Assembly: GCA_016782225.1 (NCBI GenBank)
Contig: JADDOW010000009.1
Coordinates: forward strand, 1 to 53,985
DNA length: 53,985 nucleotides
From: Nitrososphaeraceae archaeon
GTDB lineage: Archaea; Thermoproteota; Nitrososphaeria; Nitrososphaerales; Nitrososphaeraceae
Direction: 5' to 3'
The notes beneath the pieces were generated by a model that did not search any database, had not been told where the DNA came from, and worked only from the letters and a program-made list of their open reading frames with translations. Below, one piece after another: positions 5,107 through 53,985 of the stretch. Position 1 is the stretch's first letter; each line of letters starts with the position of its first letter. The position numbers and the translations under genes are program-made.

Positions 5107-5580
5107 TTGAATATCAGCAAACAAATTCAATTCCCAAACAAGTTTATTCTTGTTGTTATATTAGTTCTATTGGGTTTAATTTTTTCATTAATGATGTTGG
5201 GTGTATATCTTTCATCTGTAGGTCAAGGCCTCTCGTGTTTGACTTGGCCTACATGTCCTAACGGGTTTAACTTTCCGCCTACCGAGTATTTTTTGGAGCA
5301 TTTCCACAGATCTCTGGTTTTAGTTGTTGCCATAATCTTGTATTCATTTACAGTATTTTCCTTTTTGGGAGTCGGCAATAAAAATTTTAAGGTTAAATTA
5401 ATCATTGCATCAGTACTTTTAACTACTCAAATAATATTGGGTTGGATAATGATCTTAACTAGATTGAACCCAATAGTTGTTGCATCCCATCTTTCTACAG
5501 CGGTAGCACTGTTTGGAATTCTTATTGTTACCTTATTGTCGGTTTATAATGAATTGCAAAACAACAAGGTTAAAAATTAG
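5107..5580 (+). CDS. ctaA: Half-size heme A synthase (CtaA/COX15 family)
   Basis: This 157-aa membrane protein has four predicted helices (about residues 13-35, 66-87, 97-117, 123-145). The EHFHR motif at about residue 63 and the His in VVASHLSTAV (about 128) are the haem-ligand histidines of the CtaA family. Bacterial CtaA is about 300 aa with two such four-helix halves; archaeal members are often a single half, as here. Known role: oxidation of the haem O methyl to make haem A for terminal oxidases. A CxxxxxC pair, SCLTWPTC, lies in the first loop, as in Cys-type CtaA. The start is TTG at 5107, close to the first helix; no ATG fits. Convergent with the next gene. Confidence 0.85.
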   Translation: MNISKQIQFPNKFILVVILVLLGLIFSLMMLGVYLSSVGQGLSCLTWPTCPNGFNFPPTEYFLEHFHRSLVLVVAIILYSFTVFSFLGVGNKNFKVKLIIASVLLTTQIILGWIMILTRLNPIVVASHLSTAVALFGILIVTLLSVYNELQNNKVKN

Positions 5581-40792: not shown

Positions 40793-42139
40793 ATGCTAAA
40801 GAACGGAAAAAAAATGGAAGGCGAAGAGGATGAAGCAGCAGCTGGAGGAGGAGGAGGAGGAAACACTGTTAACGATGCAGAACTTGATGAGAAAATACAT
40901 GGAGATTTCTTAATCTCAAAAAAAAAAATATATTTGAACAATGGATCTGTCGGTCCGGTTCCGATTTCAACTGTTAAAGCCATCACTGATTTTTACCTGA
41001 GATATTCAGAGCAGGGTCCTGATTCCACAGAATCCAATGAGTATTTGGAAAACCTAAAAATGGAGACAAGGAGAAGAGTTGCAGACTTAATTAACTGCGA
41101 CAGCGACGAGATAATTTTTACATCCAGTACTACAGAGGGAATCAACTTTGTCACAAATGGTATTGCCTGGGGGGTAAATGACAGGATATTGCTGAGAAAT
41201 TCTAAAAGCGAGCACTTTTCAAACTATTTGCCGTGGATTAAGGCAGCTAATGACAATGACTTGCAGATAGAGAGATTTCCCTTTGAAAACGAAAACATGG
41301 TTATAGAAGACCTTACAAAACTAATGGAATCACCTCCATCACCATCGCCATCACCGAGATTTCCTCGAATTGTTTCCACAAGTCATGTAATGTACAACAA
41401 TGGCTCAATCACCCCTATCGAAAAAATGGGAAGCATCATTAAAAAAAAAAATAAAAAAACATTATTTTCGATAGATGGAGCACAAAGTGTTGGTGCGATT
41501 GAAGTTGATGTAAAAAAAATCAAATGCGACTTTTTGTCTTTTCCAGCGTTTAAGTGGATTTGCGGACCACTGGGAATTGGTGTTTTATATGTTAATAAAA
41601 AAGTGATGAATGACGAATTTGAGCCGGTATTTGTGGGCTCAGGCACCGCTCAAACTGAGTCAATCAAAGAAGGAAAAGATAATATCAAAGGTGGCAGTTC
41701 CGCAAACAAAAAACAGGAAACACTAAAATATTATAAATACCCGCAAAAGTATCACTCCACTTTTAGAAATTATCCCGGTTTGGCTGGGCTTGAGTCCTCC
41801 ATAAGGTATTTGCTTAGAATAGGCATCTCAAACATATGTAAAAAAAACAAAAAGCTATCTAATATCTTCAGAGGGGAAATCTCAAAAATAAAGGAGATTG
41901 CCATCCATGAAGCATCTGAAGAAAGCATGCGCTCATCTATGGTTAGCTTTTCATTTAGGAATAACAACAACAACAGGGTTAAGATTTTAATTGAAAAACT
42001 GCAAGAAAAAGGGATAATATTGGCTGAAAGAGAAATAGGCATGAAAAAAATTGTAAGGGCTTCCCCTCATTTTTATAATACCGAAAACGAAATCATAAAA
42101 ACAATTAATGAGATAAAAATCATAACAAGCAAGATATAG
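40793..42139 (+). CDS. Class V aminotransferase (cysteine-desulfurase/epimerase-like)
   Basis: The 448-aa PLP enzyme has IYLNNGSVGPVP (about residues 46-57), FTSSTTEGINFV, SIDGAQSVGAIEVD, and FPAFKWICGPLGIG with the PLP Lys (about residue 254). The architecture is that of class V aminotransferases such as SufS or isopenicillin-N-epimerase-like enzymes; the usual desulfurase Cys loop is not evident, so the substrate is unknown. The N-terminus carries an acidic, Ala-Gly tract (AAAGGGGGG) encoded by GGA repeats, and a second tract SPPSPSPSPRFP lies mid-protein. Confidence 0.85.
   Translation: MLKNGKKMEGEEDEAAAGGGGGGNTVNDAELDEKIHGDFLISKKKIYLNNGSVGPVPISTVKAITDFYLRYSEQGPDSTESNEYLENLKMETRRRVADLINCDSDEIIFTSSTTEGINFVTNGIAWGVNDRILLRNSKSEHFSNYLPWIKAANDNDLQIERFPFENENMVIEDLTKLMESPPSPSPSPRFPRIVSTSHVMYNNGSITPIEKMGSIIKKKNKKTLFSIDGAQSVGAIEVDVKKIKCDFLSFPAFKWICGPLGIGVLYVNKKVMNDEFEPVFVGSGTAQTESIKEGKDNIKGGSSANKKQETLKYYKYPQKYHSTFRNYPGLAGLESSIRYLLRIGISNICKKNKKLSNIFRGEISKIKEIAIHEASEESMRSSMVSFSFRNNNNNRVKILIEKLQEKGIILAEREIGMKKIVRASPHFYNTENEIIKTINEIKIITSKI
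40844..40861 (+). repeat. GGA microsatellite, six units
   Basis: Six tandem GGA units encode six glycines at the N-terminus of the class V aminotransferase. Being trinucleotide, length change would not break the frame. Confidence 0.9.
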
Positions 42140-42571: not shown

Positions 42572-42655
42572 GCGGGGGTCGCCTAGCCTGGTAGGGCGTG
42601 GGATTGCTAATCCCATGTTCGCAAGAACTCATGGGTTCGAATCCCATTCCCCGCG
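42572..42655 (+). tRNA. tRNA-Ser (anticodon GCT)
   Basis: The acceptor stem GCGGGGG pairs with TCCCCGC (one G-U), followed by discriminator G, as in serine tRNAs. The anticodon loop TTGCTAA gives GCT. A long variable arm (GTTC-GCAA-GAAC) marks a class II tRNA, and the T arm is ATGGG-TTCGAAT-CCCAT. No CCA is encoded. An integrase gene starts 58 bp downstream, so the 3' half is the probable attachment site. Confidence 0.95.
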
Positions 42656-42660
42656 CTTCA
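42632..42660 (+). other. Probable attachment-site region at the 3' end of tRNA-Ser
   Basis: tRNA-targeting tyrosine recombinases normally recombine in the T arm/acceptor 3' part, which the element then restores. The integrase gene directly downstream makes this part the likely attL. No second copy of the T arm and 3' acceptor sequence was found in the remaining window, so the other end is outside. Confidence 0.4.
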
Positions 42661-42713: not shown

Positions 42714-44137
42714 TTGAACTTCCATAATGAATCTAATGGTTTAATACAAGAGAATACAAATGAAAAAGTTCTTACCGCTTTAGGGAAAAAAATAGATTCA
42801 ATTACAAAATCTTTATCAAAGCCATATTATAACAAAATATTAAAGGATCTCTTAAAGACTAATCCATTTAATACCAATATAATTTATGACTATATAACTA
42901 CAGAACAAACAGAATTAAACATCAAGGATTCAACTATAGAAACCAAAATAAAGATATTAGTTTGGCTTTCAAAACATCACGAAAACAAATCTTTTAAAGA
43001 AATGACAAAACAGGATATACTTGAATACTTAAACAATTTACGGAAACCATCTACAGAAGACCCTGCAAACAAATGGGTTGGAACTTACAATGGCAGACAG
43101 ATGATCTTGCTAAAGTTTTTTAAATGGCTATATTATCCTGAAGAAGATTACAGAAAAAGACCAACCCCAATCTGCATTCAAAGTTTAAGAATACTTCCAA
43201 GGAAAGAAAAAACATCCTACAAGCCTTCTGATATTTGGGAGGCAAGAGAGCATGCAGTTTTCTTAAAATATTGTCCATATAAAAGAGACAAATGCTACCA
43301 TGCTTTGGCCAATGATATGTCTGCAAGGCCTCATGAAATTCTGAATCTAAAAGTTAAGGATATTAAATTTAATGTTACGGACGAAGGCATTCATTATGCG
43401 GAAGTAAGGATCACACAAGGCAAAACCGGACCTAGAACCGTACCTCTAATTGACTCATTACCATATCTTAAGGAATGGCTAGAAGAGCATCCCATGGGAA
43501 ATGTACTTGATTCCCATATTTTTATATCACAAGGAAATAACCATATGGTTCTAAATTAACTTTAAATGGTCTTTCCAGACATTATAATTATTATAAGACA
43601 AGGTATTTTCCAAAATTACTTGATGATAGTACTATTCCCTTATGTGACAAAGCATTTATTAAAAATATGCTAACAAAGCCCTGGAACCTGTATGTTTTTA
43701 GGCATAGTGCTTTAACAGAGAAAAGCCAGATATTGTCCGAATCAGTTCTCAAAGACCATGCAGGATGGACTATGTCAGGCAAAATGACTCAAGTTTATAT
43801 ACATTTGAGCGGGGAGTCATCGAAAATACTGCTGCAGAGGAGGGGTGTGATTAAGCAAAACGATATTGGAAAAGACAATGCCTTAAGAACAAGGCAATGC
43901 CCAAACTGCTTTGAACCCAATAGACCGGATTCTCAATTTTGCATAAAGTGCAGAATTGTATTGTCCTTAGAATCTTATAATGATGTGTTAAAACGACAAA
44001 AAGAAAAGGATCTAGAAGTTAAGCAGTTAAGAGAACAACAGGCCAATGATATAAAGGTGATAAGAGAACACATGGAAAACAGGTTCCAGCAAATACTCTT
44101 AAAGGTTAATGTTGATAATTTAAGAAAGGGGGAATAG
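42714..44137 (+). pseudogene. Tyrosine-recombinase integrase with C-terminal zinc ribbon, frameshifted
   Basis: Frame one (42714-43559) holds the N-terminal SAM-like core-binding domain and the first catalytic Arg in NDMSARPHEIL, then Lys in QGKTGPRTVPL. Frame two (open from 43541, ending 44137) carries LYVFRHSALTEK (Arg/His box), KDHAGWTMSGKMTQVYIHLSGE (His/Trp and nucleophile Tyr), the zinc ribbon CPNCFEPN...FCIKC and a coiled tail. All catalytic residues are present, so a single lost base near 43538-43559 (-1) splits an otherwise complete gene of about 475 codons. It may be inactive, recoded, or a sequence error. The start is TTG at 42714. Confidence 0.85.
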
Positions 44138-44576
44138 CAGTAAGTTTAGCAACAAGCCCATCATTTGCTTCTCTTTGTGTCATTTAGTTAATTTGGTATT
44201 GTAAATTATAGGTTGCAGCTATCGAAATTGGCTTTTGTGTATGCGATTATTAAATGATCTCTATAATTATGTGCTACAACTTTTTAAATTAAAAATATGA
44301 TGGTCATACATTGAATGAACCTATCTGACAATCATCATCATATCAAAGAATATGTATGTAATCCCACTATATCAAATTTAAATTCAGAGGACTAGCATTT
44401 CATATATGCATCTAAACACAAAATATATTTTCGGTATATGTAGGTTATTACAAAATATGTATTATTTTTCAATTTAGTCTATAGATTTATATTATACATA
44501 ATAGGAATATAAGGTATATAGCGTAAGCTAAAACTAAATAAACAAATAAGTAAGACAATCATATAAAATATTTAAG
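44138..44576. other. AT-rich intergenic region in the island
   Basis: This gap of about 440 nt after the integrase has no convincing ORF. It is unusually AT-rich with short palindromic stretches such as AAATTTAAATT near 44370 and TATTATACATAATA near 44492. It could hold promoters or an origin, but nothing specific is recognised. Confidence 0.4.
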
Positions 44577-44765
44577 GTGGAATTTAAAATTTTAATACAA
44601 ACTAAGAATATCCATTCGGTTAGAAAGAACAAATACAGTGCAAGTTCAAATTTATTTAAACCTGCTACTTTTGTTAAAAAAATGCCTCTTATGCTGTGTT
44701 TAGTAGACCAAGAAATACCTGTTGAAAGTTTCGTAGGCTCCTCAACAGGTATCTCTGTTAGTTAA
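44577..44765 (+). CDS. Doubtful 62-aa ORF (GTG start)
   Basis: The GTG at 44577 follows TTAAGG and opens a 62-codon frame with a basic N-terminal part and an ordinary C-terminal part (PLMLCLVDQEIPVESFVGS). Its 3' part coincides with an 11-bp inverted repeat (44715-44752), so the DNA there may be a hairpin or binding site rather than coding. No family recognised. Confidence 0.25.
   Translation: MEFKILIQTKNIHSVRKNKYSASSNLFKPATFVKKMPLMLCLVDQEIPVESFVGSSTGISVS
44715..44752. repeat. Perfect 11-bp inverted repeat, 16-nt loop
   Basis: ATACCTGTTGA (44715-44725) and TCAACAGGTAT (44742-44752) are exact reverse complements. The repeat lies 28 bp before the first gene of the small-protein row, a position fit for an operator, a leader hairpin or an iteron-like site. 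Confidence 0.75.
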
Positions 44766-44780
44766 ACGAGACGATTAAAC

Positions 44781-45095
44781 ATGACAAATGAGCAACCAAT
44801 CTCTAACAACAATTTACAATATGAGGCAACAGGATATAAAGATAAGCATGTACTTTGCATGGCCAGAGATTGCAGTAATAGTGCATCATTTGAAGTGAAG
44901 TTAGCCATTGTAAATCGATATGGTGATTTTTGCAAAGGCTGCAAAAGATACTTTGAAGAAAAAGACCTGATTGTTTCTTGCTCCACAATTAATTTGGGGG
45001 TTGGAGAAGGAAAGATTGTCAACCTCTCCACATACAATAAAGAGAATAATAGTTCAAAGGATACACTAGGGGAAACGAAGTTAAATGCTCAATAA
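44781..45095 (+). CDS. Island zinc-finger-like protein, 104 aa
   Basis: The product carries HVLCMARDCSNSASFEVKL and FCKGCKRYFEEKD, two Cys pairs (about residues 26-31 and 51-54) that look like one four-Cys zinc site, followed by a flexible Ser/Asn-rich tail. It is the first gene after the 11-bp inverted repeat. The stop overlaps the next ORF by 11 nt, so translational coupling is likely. No named family recognised; a small nucleic-acid-binding or regulatory protein is plausible. Confidence 0.6.
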   Translation: MTNEQPISNNNLQYEATGYKDKHVLCMARDCSNSASFEVKLAIVNRYGDFCKGCKRYFEEKDLIVSCSTINLGVGEGKIVNLSTYNKENNSSKDTLGETKLNAQ

Positions 45096-45231
45096 TTTGC
45101 ATCTTAACTACAACATCCGCAGATATAAGTTAGATTTTCCCTCAAACATCAAAGCCAAATCAGCAGACTCATTGATTGCTGTAGCAGAAAAATGCAGCAG
45201 GACTATAACTGCTACTATGGTATGCGGGTAA
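45085..45231 (+). CDS. 48-aa island protein
   Basis: The ORF reads MLNNLHLNYNIRRYKLDF and ends TITATMVCG. It overlaps the stop of the zinc-finger gene (11 nt) and ends 9 bp before the next ATG, so it fits tightly in the row of small genes. No domain recognised; evidence is position and open frame only. Confidence 0.4.
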   Translation: MLNNLHLNYNIRRYKLDFPSNIKAKSADSLIAVAEKCSRTITATMVCG

Positions 45232-45240
45232 GTAAGAAAA

Positions 45241-46526
45241 ATGGAAAATAATTTATCCGATTCAAATTGTTATTGCGAATGTGATGGAGATAAGTCATAT
45301 AATGAATACCTAAATGACTTTTCAACCGGTAACTTTTGGATTTCAAGTCTGCAAAAGATGATAATGAGAAGACCAACACTACAGAATCTACGGAAACTGC
45401 AGAAACAATCTCTGACAATCAAGAAGATATAGCAGAAAAGGTCGAGGGGATAGACAATGCATTTCACGACCGCCGCCCTAATGCAGGCGGCGGCGGGTGT
45501 ATTAATGATGAACACAACATATCAAAAGAAAATAGAACAAATTCAGAAGATTTGGTTAGGGAATTGGAATCCCGATTGGGAACTAGAAACAAATCACCAA
45601 AGAGAAGAAAAGTTCTCTTGCTTACTGGATCCCTGAACCTTGGGAGAGGCATAGGCATGACTGTTAAGGAATTAGAAAAAAGGGGTTTTGGAAAAGACCA
45701 CGCGGAAAAAATGTTACGGGATTTAAGGGATTCAGGATTCCTATCAGAGCTTGACAAAAGGGTTGGTCATATGAAACAATATGCACTACCTAACTGCATG
45801 CATTTAGTGGAGGCCAAGACCAATGGTAAGGAAAAAGAAGAAATCCTGCCCAATGACTTTACCTTACTCATAGCCAACAGGCTTTCACTCATGGAAGATG
45901 GTTACCATAACATCCACATGGAAACTTTCCTTAACTATAGGGAAGACTATGACTTATTGGGTTGGCCAGTCTCTAGTACGCTCAACAAGCAAAAGGTGAA
46001 GACATTTAAGCTTGATATGAAAAGAAGTGTCACATTTACGATAGCACCAAATGGAGCGGTGAACATTGCAATAGGGTGTACCCACAAACCATACAAATTC
46101 CATTCCGCTGCAGGCTTGATTGATTTTTTTGTAGCCTGTGGCCAAATATTTAATCTGTTGCAGATGGCAACCATCAACAGGTTTAATGTAGTTCCAAGGG
46201 TTGGCGATTGGCATCTAACGCAGTTTGACTATAACAAAGACATTCCTATCAAAGACCTGCAGGACAAATATTCTACCAATGTTATAAGCTGGTCATCCAA
46301 GGGAGTGCTTAAGCTAGATTATCTGGGAACCATCTTTCAAGTCTACTGCAAATTTATGCCCTTTGTTGGTGAATGCCTTCGGTTTGAGGGGCACTATAAC
46401 GCAAAATCAAAGGTGAAGTTAGAGGACATGGTTGCGGATATTGCTAATGGAAATAAACACCCGTTTACTACACTTGAGGAGATGATTTTGAATGGAAGAA
46501 GTAAGATTGCAGATGATCGAAGTTAA
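45241..46526 (+). CDS. Winged-helix-like island protein, possibly frameshifted at its N-terminus
   Basis: The main frame (45336-46526, TTG start, 396 aa) has an acidic, Thr/Glu-rich N-terminus, then a winged-helix-like region (GMTVKELEKRGFGKDHAEKM then LRDLRDSGFLSELD, about residues 107-140). An uncharacterised domain follows, with RSVTFTIAPNGAVNIAIGC and SAAGLIDFFVACGQIF. An ATG-started frame at 45241 (MENNLSDSNCYCECDGD...) runs into the same position. Adding one T to the TTTT at 45334-45337 would join them into one protein starting at 45241. Alternatively two genes overlap. The unknown C-terminal domain may be the element's core function, such as replication or regulation; this is inference. 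Confidence 0.55.
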
Positions 46527-46658
46527 GATAATTAGAGGTGGGAATCAACTCAATCATGCCCCCATACACCATAGTAGGGAATCCATATGCAACAACCAAA
46601 GAGGCGTCAACCCATCAACTTCGCCCTATAAGCATTTGTTAATATGCACAAGGTGATA

Positions 46659-46871
46659 ATGTTGCAAAAACAATATTTTATACGTCCTTATCCTGTTGGA
46701 ATAGACAAAAGGTCACTGGCCATGATTCTCCCCTTTGACCTGGTTAAATCTCTTAACATAAACTCATCTACCATGTTTTTTTTATTAAAGGTCAGAGAAA
46801 ATGATGAGTTACAGTTAAGGATTATCAGACAAGAGCATCTGGAGAAAAAGGACATCTGTTACTGCCACTGA
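46659..46871 (+). CDS. AbrB/MazE-like swapped-hairpin protein
   Basis: The 70-aa product (MLQKQYFIRPYPVGIDKRSL) carries IDKRSLAMILPFDLVKSLNI and MFFLLKVRENDELQLRII, the strand-helix-strand pattern of AbrB/SpoVT-type DNA-binding proteins. An AAGGTG ribosome-binding site precedes the ATG at 46659; an ATG five codons upstream (46644) is also open. It is cotranscribed with the next gene. It could be an antitoxin-like or element regulator, but no toxin partner is recognised beside it. Confidence 0.55.
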   Translation: MLQKQYFIRPYPVGIDKRSLAMILPFDLVKSLNINSSTMFFLLKVRENDELQLRIIRQEHLEKKDICYCH

Positions 46872-46876
46872 ACAGG

Positions 46877-46882
46877 AGGTCC
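46877..46882 (+). promoter_or_regulatory. Strong Shine-Dalgarno site deciding a TTG start
   Basis: AGGAGG lies in the gap after the AbrB-like gene, 7 nt before the TTG at 46890. This full-match ribosome-binding site supports the TTG as the real start of the following gene. Confidence 0.7.
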
Positions 46883-46889
46883 AACAGAA

Positions 46890-47839
46890 TTGAAAAACTA
46901 TGAGGATGAACCTTGGGCCTACAACTACACATCTACAACAGATGATGATGAGGATGTATTTGACCCAACTAAACATAAAATGGGTGCCGAAGAAGGCCAT
47001 GATGCAGAGGTCACCAAGCTGTTTGTAGATGCAAGGGACAAACTAGAAAAGGTTGAAGCGAACGCCATAAAGCAAAAAAAGCAAATTGTTGTAGATTTGG
47101 CAAAAAGCCTTGAGGGAAAGATTGCAACAGACACCATATATATGGAGATAACTAACCAATTGCGTGGCCAAGTAAACGAGCGGACTGTTCGGGCATATCT
47201 TGATAAAAAATACAAACAAAAACCCGAGGTAGAAAATGCAACAAAGCAGATGAAGCGACAACAGGAACCTGATAGGTTAGCGGCATTATCGCTGCTAAAT
47301 CGGGAAGATGCTGAAAACAAAAAGGAGATTATCGTGGTTGATGTAGGTGGTAGCCAAACAATGATTCAGGATGATAGAAAGGAGGATGACAAGGATGCTG
47401 ATGATGAAATGCATTCCATATCCAATGAATCACCCATCACAAATGATGAGTATAATGGCGCCAACCCCCCACTGATTCAAATACAGGAGCAGCAACAAAC
47501 CCAAAAACTCAAGACAGGCATTTTGAATCAGAAACAGCAAATCCAGTTCCCAAAGATCAACACTTTGACGGTGTCGAACTAGAGAATATCCCTGATAATT
47601 CAGGCCTAAAAATTGGAGCAAACAATACGGTATCTACTGCATTAATCAACCACAACAAATCAAATAATGACAAGGCCAATATAGTGCCCTTTGAGTTTTC
47701 TTTGCCATATTGGAAAGTATCTGAATATTTGCGCCCTTTATTTAGAAGAGTTGGCAATAATGGTGATGTGTGGTTTAATGACAGCATTGACAAAAGGACA
47801 GGAAGAGTCTTATCTCCCAACATTGGAAGAATGGATTAA
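46890..47839 (+). pseudogene. Acidic/Gln-rich island protein, frameshifted in its linker
   Basis: The first frame (46890-47582) gives a charged product with a helical region DARDKLEKVEANAIKQKKQI, a winged-helix-like stretch IYMEITNQLRGQVNERTVRA, then a low-complexity Gln/Asp linker. A second frame, open from about 47456 to 47839 and without its own start, continues as HFDGVELENIPDNSGLKIG, IVPFEFSLPYWKVSEYLRPL and VGNNGDVWFNDSIDKRTGRV. Joining them needs one extra base, most simply a T in the TTTT at 47521-47524 (-1). The combined protein would be about 315 aa. No named family. Confidence 0.5.
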
Positions 47840-48177
47840 GCAACAATATGATGTAACAACAATATACATATTATTTGAATAATGGAGATGGCGAGAATGT
47901 GGTGTTAACTTTCAAAGACTTGTCTCCATGTCAAGTTTAACTATATTATTGGGGCCAAAGTTTAATATCGTATTGGGTTGATACAAGTTCCTTTTGTCGT
48001 CAAATCCTATTCTTCATTTTCCAACAAGAGATTTCGTTGACAAGGTGAGCATATTCAAGTTGCAAGTTAAAAACTCATGGTGCTAAGGTGGAAGGCAGAA
48101 GTGGTGGAAAATCTTTTACTTTGATTTACAAATAAATTAAACTCAGAATTATTAGTAATAGATTAATTAGTCTTATT
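47840..48177. other. Intergenic region, nothing recognised
   Basis: About 340 nt between the broken island gene and the methyltransferase gene. No coding frame of note and no transposase remnant was seen. An AT-rich stretch just before 48178 may hold the methyltransferase promoter. Confidence 0.4.
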
Positions 48178-49119
48178 ATGAAGCAAAGAGATGATAATGG
48201 ATGGGACGCAGAAACATATGATAATGTTTCTACTCCACAAGAAGACTTCGCATTAAAACTTGTTCAATTAAGGAATTGGGCAGGCAATGAGATTGTAATG
48301 GATGCAGGATGCGGCTCTGGAAGGGTTACCAAAATTTTGGCAAAAAGGATTCCAAATGGAAGGATATATGCAGTGGACAACGATGTAAATATGATTGATA
48401 AAGCAAAAGATAACCTATCGGAATTTGAAAACATAGCCCTTATTAATTCAAATCTTCTTTATCTTAGCCTAAAGATAATTCCATCCAAAGTGGATGTCAT
48501 ATTTTCAAATGCTGTCTTGCATTGGGTATTGGATCATCCAAAGATATTCAGAAGTTTTTTTGACCTATTAAACCATAATGGACAATTACTCATTCAATGT
48601 GGCGGATATGGAAATTTAAGAAAAGCTATATCTGTTTTTGACAATTTAAAGGATTCAGTAAAATTCAGACATTTTTTTAAAAATTGGAAAGATGAATGGT
48701 ATTTCCCAAAGCCATTAGAAACTGAAAAACTTCTCAAAGAAATAGGGTATAGCAATGTCAATGTATACCTAAAGGAGACTCCAATATCATTTCCAGACAG
48801 AAATAGCTATTCCCTATATCTAAAGACCGTTATACTAGGACCTTATTTGCGACATATCAAGTCGGAGAATGGTAAAGAGGAATATCTTGAATATGTATTG
48901 GAAGAGATAGAGCAAAATCATTCCGAGATGATGTGGAACTTTGACTATGTAAGATTGAATATTTTAGCTGATAAATCATGTAATACTTTTCTTACACAAG
49001 GTAATCACCATCTACAACATGTGGAAAGCGAATGTGTCTCCTCAACTTCAAGAGATACATCACCACATCATGTTGTATGGCGGCCACAACAACATGGAAA
49101 AATTGAATGGAGCGATTAG
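48178..49119 (+). CDS. Class I SAM-dependent methyltransferase (trans-aconitate-methyltransferase-like)
   Basis: The 313-aa product has motif I VMDAGCGSGRVTKIL (about residues 40-54), the acidic motif II AVDNDVNMIDKA, post-I DVIFSNAVLHWVLDHP and the methyltransferase core up to about residue 265. The HWVLDHP pattern resembles trans-aconitate 2-methyltransferases, but the substrate is unknown. The last 45 residues (from about KSCNTFLTQG) are low in similarity to the family and His/Ser-rich, perhaps an extension by a lost stop. It is probably cargo of the island. Confidence 0.8.
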   Translation: MKQRDDNGWDAETYDNVSTPQEDFALKLVQLRNWAGNEIVMDAGCGSGRVTKILAKRIPNGRIYAVDNDVNMIDKAKDNLSEFENIALINSNLLYLSLKIIPSKVDVIFSNAVLHWVLDHPKIFRSFFDLLNHNGQLLIQCGGYGNLRKAISVFDNLKDSVKFRHFFKNWKDEWYFPKPLETEKLLKEIGYSNVNVYLKETPISFPDRNSYSLYLKTVILGPYLRHIKSENGKEEYLEYVLEEIEQNHSEMMWNFDYVRLNILADKSCNTFLTQGNHHLQHVESECVSSTSRDTSPHHVVWRPQQHGKIEWSD

Positions 49120-49150
49120 AGATAGAGAAAGACAATGAGAGTATAAGAAA

Positions 49151-49305
49151 ATGAACATACCCATATTAAAGGGGTATCAATATACCACAACCATATCAGA
49201 GGATATCCAGCATTGGGTTGAAAGACACCTGCAGAGCAGGCGGCGATAGAGATAGAAGAGGAGAATAGGTGGAACACGCTGATTGAAAATGCGGTTAATG
49301 GTTAG
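49151..49305 (+). pseudogene. Short broken ORF (frameshift remnant)
   Basis: ATG at 49151 opens MNIPILKGYQYTTTISEDIQ then HWVERHLQ before a stop at about 49249. The -1 frame continues as AEQAAIEIEEENRWNTLIEN to a stop at 49305. The two halves form a plausible small alpha-helical protein if one base is added near 49231. No family recognised. Confidence 0.35.
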
Positions 49306-49383
49306 CTTTAAATTCAATTCTTTATAAATTATTATGAAGTTCTGTCATAAACGCTTTATACCACAGATTTAATTTAGATAGAC

Positions 49384-49610
49384 ATGGGAGACAATTGGGA
49401 GAATTTCGATACATGGCAAAAAGGAAAAAAGATGATGATAGTGTTTTGAACTTTTTGATTGGATTGGTAGGGGGAATACATAAACGAAGGTATGGCAACA
49501 TAAAAAGCATAAGACGTGGATGTAATGATAAAATATATAGCACATTACCACTTTTTACAAAAAAAAGTCAGTCCTACAAAAAATATGCTATTCAATATTG
49601 TATATCTTGA
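49384..49610 (+). pseudogene. Short ORF, possibly frameshifted
   Basis: ATG at 49384 gives MGDNWENFDTWQKGKK and stops soon after. The -1 frame (open from 49395, ATG at 49413) continues as DDDSVLNFLIGLVGGIHKRR to 49610. Adding one A to the run of six A near 49435 would fuse them. Alternatively the 65-aa ORF at 49413 is a separate small gene with one weak hydrophobic patch. Confidence 0.35.
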
Positions 49611-50104
49611 AGACATACATATCATACAATGTAGTTTATTGTAATAATAATCATATCATAGAAACAGTATCAATGAAACAGTAATGATAGGTTTCCTTAA
49701 GGAGTCTTTGATAACATAGTTAATATTTGTCCATTTGATAAAATGATTTTCATAATTAGGTGTTTTCCATATTCCATTTACAGATAGGAAATCCATAATT
49801 AGCAAAAATCCTATTTCTCTTTCATAATGTAAATCATCCTAAACTAAAATGACCTTGATTAAGGTTCATATCGTATTATATCCCATAATGGCAAATACAT
49901 TTAATTTGTTAAAAGAATTTGTTTTATCGTTGCAACAAACATAAATACAGATTTGTCTTATGTTGAATTAGTTGTCTTTATTGTCTTTATAATTTTCCTG
50001 ATTCATGCATAATTGATGAGTGGAGATAATAAATTCAATTAAAACAACAAATCCGAATTCTAATAGATCAGGTTACAGATTCCCTATATCTTTTTTATCA
50101 ATTA
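49611..50104. other. Intergenic region, nothing recognised
   Basis: About 490 nt of AT-rich DNA between the short ORF and the kinase remnant. Only very short ORFs (18 codons or fewer) and a minor 5-bp palindrome (ACCTT-GATT-AAGGT, about 49851) are visible. Confidence 0.4.
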
Positions 50105-51850
50105 TCATTCCGTAAGAAGAGTAAATGCAAAATTCACGCCATCGGGGTTTTTGTTGTTCTCCGCCCATATCCTTCCACCATGTGCTTCAACTATGTTTTT
50201 TCAAAGATACAATCCCAAACCCGTTCCCTGAAATGATTTTGTTGCAAATTTGCTGAACAGTTATGGAAATATTTCCTCATCGATCGCTTTCCCTGAATTA
50301 AACACACTAAACTTCACCTTGTCTTCCCATATTTCAACGAGGACTTTAATAATCCCTGATTCAGTAAACTTGTTTGCATTATCTATCAAGTTATACAGTA
50401 CCCTAGACAACCGGAAACAATCTGCAGACACTTCAAAATACTTTTTGTCATACCCTTATTTTAGTTCGTCTTTTAACGCGTCTTTTGACTCCAAAAGCAG
50501 TTTGTTGTTATGTTTAAACTCCAATTCCATGTGGTTGTTTTTGTCTTGCAAAAGGGTTTGGTATTCCTTTGTTAAGCTTGAGAGATATGGATACAGATCA
50601 ATTTTTTCCTTGTTTAGCACCAAGATTTTCTCCTCAATGCGCGTCAGATCCAGTATGTCATCTGCTAGATGCAACAGCTTTTTGGCATTCTTTGTTATAA
50701 TGCTTAGCATTTTTTTCTGCCCTTCATCCGTTATTTTATCGCGAACCAAATCCGACAATCCCAAGATTGGCTGTATGGGATTTCGCAATTCATGCGCTGC
50801 CAGGTTTACAAACTCTTTTTGAAGATTGGCAGAATCCTCCACATTTTGAAATAACTTTGTCTGATACCACAACCTCTCAAATGACAATATGCTGGGTGTG
50901 ATAGGCTCTTTTCTGGCTGTGTATACTCCAGGTTCAATTAACTGTGAGAATGTATCAACCGAAGTGTAATCTTTATCTTGATTAAATTTGATGGTCAGTG
51001 ATTTGTTCCTATCACATATGGCTGTCATGGTGTTTGTTTGAACTTCAAAATCAGTTGTTAATCTCGTGTTTTCAATCTTTCTGAATTCAATATTACTTTT
51101 ATCTGAGTGCACATTCCCTACTTCATTTGTAGCGTTAAATTGGGCTAATTCAGAAGGTTTTATTGTTTCAGTATTTTTAGTTGTTACTAAAATCCTTACT
51201 CCTGCCTTTTCTTGGAATGATGGTAAAACGGATAAAATATTAAAAAATCTTTGTGTGTTTTCAAAAATTGTATAGGAGGAAAATAAAAGCCAAACCTCTT
51301 TAGGTGGGGATAGAAGCAAGTTTATTAGCATATTTGAACATTTAAAGGATTATTCAATACCTTTAGTTGAGGTATTTCAAGCTTTTCTATCTCTTTTATT
51401 TTTTCTACCGCAGGTATTGCTTGATCCCATAAAACATCAAAATACTTTTGTTGTGAATAAATTAGTCTTTGTCTAGTACTAAAAATGCACTGCTGTGTGG
51501 GATATTGTGTTTTGTTGATGCCTTCAACAGTTTTTACCTTTCCTTCATCATATAGCATTATAGAGGTAAAAAGGTAATGCTTATCAGAAACCACAAACGT
51601 GCCTACGATGCCATCCAGATGCCTGACTTCAGAAAAATATTGCGATCCCTCTCTTACATAAAATATGTTATCTTTAGTAACTTCGAGTATTGCTCTTACC
51701 TTTATGCCCCGTTCAAGTGCTTTTTTGTAAGCTTTTCTTAGATCTGTCATATAGTAAAACAACGGAACAAGTTCTTTGGGAACTACTACATCTCAACTAT
51801 CATTAGTTTCACCAACGCTATTTAAAAAAAGGTTGTTTATTCTCCATCAT
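50105..51850 (-). pseudogene. Sensor histidine kinase, decayed
   Basis: The minus strand encodes a long kinase: an N-terminal sensor part (51762 to about 51325: ERGIKVRAILEVTKDNIFYV), then after a -1 shift near 51331 a second sensor part (SPPKEVWLLFSSYTIFENTQ). The HisKA H-box is NLAAHELRNPIQPILG (about 50790), followed by the ATPase domain VLYNLIDNANKF...GTGLGLYL...KNIVEAHGGRIWAEN ending at 50105. In-frame stops break it at TAA 50456-50458, TAA 50261-50263 and TGA 50201-50203, with TGA 51793-51795 upstream. The ATG at 51850 is a likely original start, with a possible +1 slip in a run of seven T. All other frame content is preserved, so decay appears recent. Confidence 0.85.
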
Positions 51851-52321
51851 TTCCATCATTCACGGAGATTAGATTATGTGAGTTTGTATTATATAGGGAT
51901 TTAATTATTGGTTAGAGTAAATTATAATTGGATAGATTGGTGTATTTCTTCTAATCTTCTAATTGTAAATCAAACCATGTATTAATGATTAGCCATAAAA
52001 TCTACTTATTTTGATTTTTTTTAGAAAGCAATATATTCTAACTCTTAATCTGATTGTAGTGTAATAAAATATAATATGAATAGAAAACGCGATATGTTAT
52101 TATGAGTGTCATAATGCCAATATCATATTCATTAACTAAGATTAAATTATTTATAATCACATAATTTTAAGTTTGGCCGCTATACGAAAAAAAATGATTA
52201 TAGGGTAAAGAAATAGACAATAAATAAAGCAACGGTTTTTGGATGTGATGCTTATCTTTCGCTTCTATTTGAGTGTCATATTAAAGGATGATGATTCACA
52301 TTCACCCTAATGGCAGTGTGA
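51851..52321. other. Intergenic region, nothing firm
   Basis: About 470 nt of AT-rich sequence. A short frame at 52288 (MMIHIHPNGSVMLYV) abuts the next remnant in another frame and could be its original start, but this is weak. Confidence 0.35.
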
Positions 52322-52708
52322 TGCTTTACGTTAGCTGAAGCAACAAGCCGTTTAGGCTCTGATGACCAGGATGTTTCGGATATCCTTTTCTTTCTTGGCA
52401 GGGTAGAAGAGAGAAGCAGATTGCTTTTGTTGGATGTAAGAGATTATGTGATTCCACCTGTAAGAAAGTGGATTTTAAAGGCCTGCGACGTAAGCAAGGA
52501 TGTAGAGATAGACGGGGTTGCACAATTGACATTGCCCGATATACAAGTACCCATGTTTGAGAAAGACCTAAGCGGCTATGTAAAACCCCTTGGGGACAAA
52601 GTGTTTTACTGAGTTGAGTTTGCCCTTATACTCAATAGGCCAATAGCAGAGGCTTTGGAGACATTAATAACAGATGTTGTAATAGACAAAGATGTTTTTA
52701 GACTGTGA
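52322..52708 (+). pseudogene. Unknown gene with an in-frame TGA
   Basis: One plus-strand frame runs open from 52322: LAEATSRLGSDDQDVSDILF, then VRDYVIPPVRKWILKACDVS and DLSGYVKPLGDKVFY. It then meets TGA at 52610-52612 and continues VEFALILNRPIAEALETLIT to TGA at 52706-52708. The text on both sides of the TGA looks coding and of one protein (about 128 codons). No family recognised. A nonsense mutation (Trp TGG to TGA, for example) is the simplest cause. Confidence 0.55.
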
Positions 52709-52964
52709 GTATATTATTAAGTAATGTTTAACAGGTAGCATGAGAAGATTGCCGAATTCTGTTATTCAATCAGCTGATAGTTTTTTTATAATATATTTAT
52801 CTAAACTGAGACCATAATATTGCATTATATCAAAACAAGCCTTTAGGTGAATCATTCATTGACAAGATGAAAGAGGTTGTTAAAGATGGTGATGGTGATG
52901 GCGGCTCAATATCTTGACTAAACTATTATCATATTATTTACATTCATCATATCTAATCTACAAA
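52709..52964. other. Intergenic remnant zone
   Basis: About 255 nt. A short frame KPLGESFIDKMKEVVKDGDG (about 52837-52918) ends at a TGA and may be a fragment of a lost gene. Otherwise nothing is recognised. Confidence 0.3.
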
Positions 52965-53110
52965 GGTAGGGCAAATGAAAATGTTGCATCCTTCCCATAC
53001 TCGTTGTTTTCTGCCCATTCTTCCTTTGTGTGCTTCAATTATGTTTTTTGTCAAGTACAATCCTAAACCTGTTCCATTTGTTGGTTTACTGGTGATGAAG
53101 AGAAAAACTA
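52965..53110 (-). pseudogene. Histidine-kinase ATPase-domain remnant
   Basis: Reading the minus strand from 53110 gives FITSKPTNGTGLGLYLTKN and IIEAHKGR, the G2 box of a HATPase domain, then after a shift WAENNEYGKDATFSFALP. Nothing of the rest of the kinase is left. It resembles the end of the larger decayed kinase at 50105-51850, so either gene duplication or independent decay of two related kinases occurred. Confidence 0.7.
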
Positions 53111-53880: not shown

Positions 53881-53985
53881 CATAGCATAACCGACTTTCT
53901 GTACAATAGTCTTAATTATTTCAATATGTTATTAATAATAAAGTGAAAGTAGGTAAAACAATATGGATGTAAATATTATAAACTA

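Follow-up and report, generated by a model that had tools for sequence, protein, structure and literature searches.

Introduction

Elements integrated at tRNA genes and carrying decayed integrase genes are known from Thaumarchaeota, for example from 'Ca. Nitrosocaldus cavascurensis' (PMC5797428). In prokaryotic pseudogenes an excess of deletions is usual (PMC2916853, citing Kuo and Ochman 2009), and insertions gave only 17% of 346 Salmonella pseudogenes (PMC2916853). Programmed −1 frameshifting also exists in archaea, as described for an alpha-fucosidase (PMC8037382).

Here we analysed a stretch of 53,985 nucleotides (the window), which is contig C76 of a genome of 2.62 Mb in 118 contigs. An original prediction, made from this DNA without homologues, had noted frame breaks of the same −1 polarity at six loci of a genomic island, mostly at homopolymers and each repaired by one added base. 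As causes it offered a decay that favours the loss of single bases, programmed −1 frameshifting, or an assembly error confined to the island. Our comparison with related genomes identifies the region of 42.7–53.9 kb as an ordinary decaying tRNA-Ser-linked integrative element of a Nitrososphaeraceae (Nitrosocosmicus-like) archaeon of ammonia-oxidiser type.

Results

Borders of the island

42572–42656, plus strand: tRNA-Ser(GCT) (ARAGORN, Rfam RF00005); the island starts immediately 3′ of it
53937–53985, plus strand: flanking DNA, probable right island limit (92% identity to G010 over 49 aligned bases)

Identity between the window and contig C70 of genome G010 ends at the 3′ end of the tRNA-Ser gene, and the match resumes in G010 about 320 bp past this tRNA gene with the final 49 bases of our stretch. 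As matching G010 DNA lies on both sides and the two matches are only about 320 bp apart there, the island represents an insertion of roughly 11 kb. Its right edge is given by one short match of 49 bases and is therefore a probable limit. An integrase gene lies beside the tRNA gene, and G010 carries DNA from beyond the island near the same tRNA, as far as the 49-base right flank tells. No direct repeat that could represent an attachment site was found; the window has just one copy of the tRNA 3′ end, and the contig stops at 53985. Besides the tRNA, Rfam revealed nothing above the gathering score in the window. Open reading frames with 100 aa or more make up 52% of the island versus 86% of the core.

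Integrase and winged-helix-like genes

42714–44137, plus strand: tyrosine integrase pseudogene (Pfam PF00589), one frame lesion (+2 at about 43541–43544)
44781–45095, plus strand: small intact ORF of 104 aa with a CxxC-type motif, conserved in G001:C206 (dN/dS 0.25)
45241–46526, plus strand: winged-helix-like gene, frame broken at 45333, where TT has become TTTT (+2)
52306–52718, plus strand: C-terminal remnant of a second winged-helix-related gene, aligned with a G000:C16 ORF of more than 329 aa

The two frames of the integrase gene overlap at 43541–43559. Intact ORFs of 507 aa (G006) and 509 aa (G005) span the whole integrase including both frames, and a frameshift-aware alignment places a single shift at 43539. 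On the DNA level the window copy has two extra bases at 43541–43544, a duplication of AT, which is absent from all six aligned copies (G021:C319, G006, G014, G012, G001:C140 and G000:C101, the last from the same genome). The break is an insertion private to the window copy and not a lost base.

A similar picture was obtained for the winged-helix-like gene. The window copy carries +2 at 45333 relative to both G001:C206 and G000:C51 in the DNA alignment. The G001:C206 copy reads through the break in one uninterrupted frame (MENN...TGNLDFEPAKDD...), and an intact homologue of 397 aa is present at G000:C16. The G000:C51 copy has a shift of its own elsewhere, in the class opposite to that of the window copy. 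Because the integrase and the winged-helix-like gene each carry a single frame lesion, their inactivation is recent and their loss of function putative.

The mostly non-coding segment 44100–44990 shows 93–99% identity to G001:C206, a level otherwise seen for core DNA, whereas its flanks are only 80–89% identical and the integrases to its left differ. This segment looks like a shared module or a recombination segment.

Acidic island gene

46890–47836, plus strand: acidic island gene with one frame break at about 47515–47550 (−1 or +2)

The 0-frame of this gene runs to 47582 and the downstream frame is open from about 47456. In G000:C16 and G021:C109 the homologues are single ORFs (293 aa and 263 aa, respectively) that span the two halves, matching the first frame to about 47515 and the second from about 47550. 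The stretch in between is too diverged from the homologues to distinguish the two shifts, so that the break may be −1 or +2. A run of TTTT at 47521 is a plausible site of the break. Scans of genome contigs and viral contigs yielded no closer relatives of the acidic protein.

Methyltransferase gene and transposase fragment

48178–48972, plus strand: class I SAM methyltransferase gene (Pfam Methyltransf_31), essentially intact, with a G001 homologue
49067–49293, plus strand: C-terminal part of an IS transposase gene, aligned with a G003:C42 ORF of 111 aa; contains the ORF at 49151
49384–49610, plus strand: open reading frame without support as a gene

The methyltransferase shares 180 of 266 residues with its G001 homologue, which stops at residue ~268. 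The final ~45 codons of the window ORF (48970–49119) lie outside the family and represent unrelated sequence adjoining the transposase fragment. This fragment has lesions at 49127 (−1), 49141 (−2) and 49181 (−1) and a stop codon at 49219. The break predicted near 49231 in the ORF at 49151 was not recovered; there is no lesion at this position, and the ORF belongs to a shredded transposase remnant with lesions of both classes. Likewise, the ORF at 49384, for which a break in an A run near 49435 had been postulated, lies in a stretch without homologue in 25 related genomes. For the non-coding segment 49635–49829 an identity of 75% to G013:C1:1126491–1126683 was reported, which was not reproduced on re-alignment, probably due to the strand.

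Histidine kinase pseudogene

50118–51933, minus strand: histidine kinase pseudogene, 82.8% DNA identity to the intact 629-aa ORF of G010:C257

Compared to the G010:C257 gene, the kinase gene has a 28-base deletion at 51842 and a 1-base deletion at 51333, where one base is gone from a two-base run. In addition, five in-frame stop codons are present (51915, 51796, 50459, 50264 and 50204). One added base would not restore this gene. The synonymous distance of the kinase to G010 is 0.50 versus 0.95–1.27 for core genes; at about half the core value, it suggests that the gene was probably transferred between lineages. The dN/dS ratio of the kinase is 0.21 versus 0.01–0.10 in four core genes, and the synonymous sites of the integrase are saturated. 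C-terminal fragments of kinase type are repeated around the island: the segments 50153–50251 and 52925–53092 both match positions 5320–5494 of G000:C51.

Core genes

The prediction that core genes are intact despite long homopolymers was confirmed: two runs of A11 (40918–40928 and 41441–41451) lie inside an unbroken aminotransferase gene. The DNA search for core genes used 22.5–42.4 kb of the window. Over about 17.2 kb of coding sequence compared with G001 (96% identity) six indels were detected, three of them triplet and three non-triplet. The non-triplet indels sit at the margins of ORFs, beyond the sequence that is likely to be coding, and no clear frame-breaking indel was seen. Indel counts for G010 versus the core were left out due to many compensated gap pairs.

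Classes of lesions in the window and in sister copies

Frame breaks were confirmed at four of the six predicted loci, namely in the genes for the integrase (~43541), the winged-helix-like protein (~45333), the acidic protein (~47515–47550) and the kinase (~51333), but not at 49151 and 49384. At these four genes the net class is −1 modulo 3, as predicted; nevertheless the lesions differ and do not represent one repeated single-base loss. That one added base repairs each break holds as modulo-3 arithmetic only, as the integrase and winged-helix lesions are +2 insertions. The association with homopolymers applies to the winged-helix-like gene and possibly to the acidic gene, but not to the integrase with its AT duplication or to the kinase.

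All five supported shifts in the four confirmed genes fall into one class (two-sided P = 0.06, before allowing for the selection of sites by the original prediction). When the window and its sister copies are taken together, 25 of 35 frame lesions belong to the −1 class (P = 0.017, kinship ignored), which is a mild bias. Most of these 25 are 1-base deletions, in line with ordinary deletional bias. The 35 lesions comprise 18 that leave the gene one base short (including the 28-base deletion), five of +1, six of +2 and five of −2, while that of the acidic gene is unsized. The 1-base deletion is the most frequent frame lesion among the sister relics. Sister copies of the same gene families are broken at other sites and in mixed classes; the opposite class was seen in the G001:C140, G021:C319, G000:C51 and G021:C109 copies.

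One pair of relics, G000:C101 (673–1600) and G001:C140 (2639–3910), consists of orthologous truncated integrase genes with a common old deletion of ~71 bp and a common 3′ truncation. Within 875 bp of 96.5% identity they differ by 11 small indels. This number shows how quickly indels pile up after selection has ceased.

Discussion

Homologues of the broken island genes are contiguous and intact, the core genes are intact, and several independent lesions of mixed kinds are confined to the island, with further independent lesions in the sister copies. We are confident that the island is an old mosaic mobile element that integrated beside tRNA-Ser(GCT) and whose genes decay as ordinary pseudogenes. 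We infer a loss of selection and an order of events as follows. The island genes would have been freed from (full) selection, or lost one at a time, and replication slippage together with other ordinary mutations would then have introduced small insertions, deletions and stop codons. The common "−1" polarity is explained by the fact that −1, +2 and −28 form one class modulo 3, and by the surplus of 1-base deletions that is usual for prokaryotic DNA without selection.

Like the Thaumarchaeota elements (PMC5797428), the island combines a tyrosine integrase gene beside a tRNA gene with mosaic cargo, integrase inactivation and traces of transposons. Unlike them it measures about 11 kb, and neither conjugation genes nor attachment repeats were recognised. 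It shares small indels, premature stop codons and an excess of deletions with prokaryotic pseudogenes under deletional bias (PMC2916853), but its two best resolved lesions are insertions.

That the decay follows a special preference of the whole lineage for losing single bases is improbable. Decay as such was correctly proposed by the original prediction, and a preference for one-base loss agrees weakly with the data as a family-wide tendency, since lesions leaving a gene one base short outnumber each other type over the window and sister copies. However, the two clearest lesions of the window are insertions, four sister copies carry the opposite class, and a deletion excess is normal for prokaryotic pseudogenes (PMC2916853).

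Still less credible is an assembly or sequencing error limited to the island. Such errors might be suspected in a genome of this many contigs, with one break in a short T run, but they do not explain five nonsense substitutions, a deletion of 28 bases and insertions of 2 bases, all restricted to the island, and the long A runs of the core aminotransferase gene show no break. Furthermore, the independently assembled G001 contains related decayed copies, one of which has a deletion in common with the C101 copy of the present genome.

Programmed −1 ribosomal frameshifting, by which slippage at one or more junctions would yield a full-length product, is very unlikely. As in the alpha-fucosidase case (PMC8037382), two ORFs stand in −1 relation, and formal 0-frame heptamers of the type X XXY YYZ occur in the acidic overlap (CCCCCCA at 47465, CCCAAAG at 47549) and in the kinase gene (TTTAAAT at 51346, minus strand). 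By our estimate chance would give about 0.8 such heptamers in these overlaps. Those at the acidic and kinase breaks are at chance level, and no in-frame heptamer is found at the integrase and winged-helix breaks. Downstream RNA structure was ordinary where tested, close to the mean of shuffled sequences (z −0.5, −0.5 and +0.5). Unlike the alpha-fucosidase gene, the island has no conserved split and no common slip site, and two of its remnants are multiply lesioned, the kinase by five stops in addition to its shift. The possibility that homologues are naturally two genes was checked: they are single contiguous ORFs across the breaks, the frame break is not conserved, and none of the aligned relatives carries the insertion of the integrase or of the winged-helix-like gene. 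Expression of the acidic gene as a single protein through −1 ribosomal slippage that compensates for a recent indel, in this lineage alone, is equally unlikely in spite of the in-frame C CCA AAG heptamer at 47549 within its 126-base overlap.

The present case is of little biological weight. It demonstrates for methodology that the net shift class in a single sequence does not identify the mutation; on alignment with homologues, two breaks that had been taken for 1-base losses proved to be 2-base insertions. The C101/C140 relic pair could serve as a small natural gauge of the indel spectrum in Nitrososphaeraceae.
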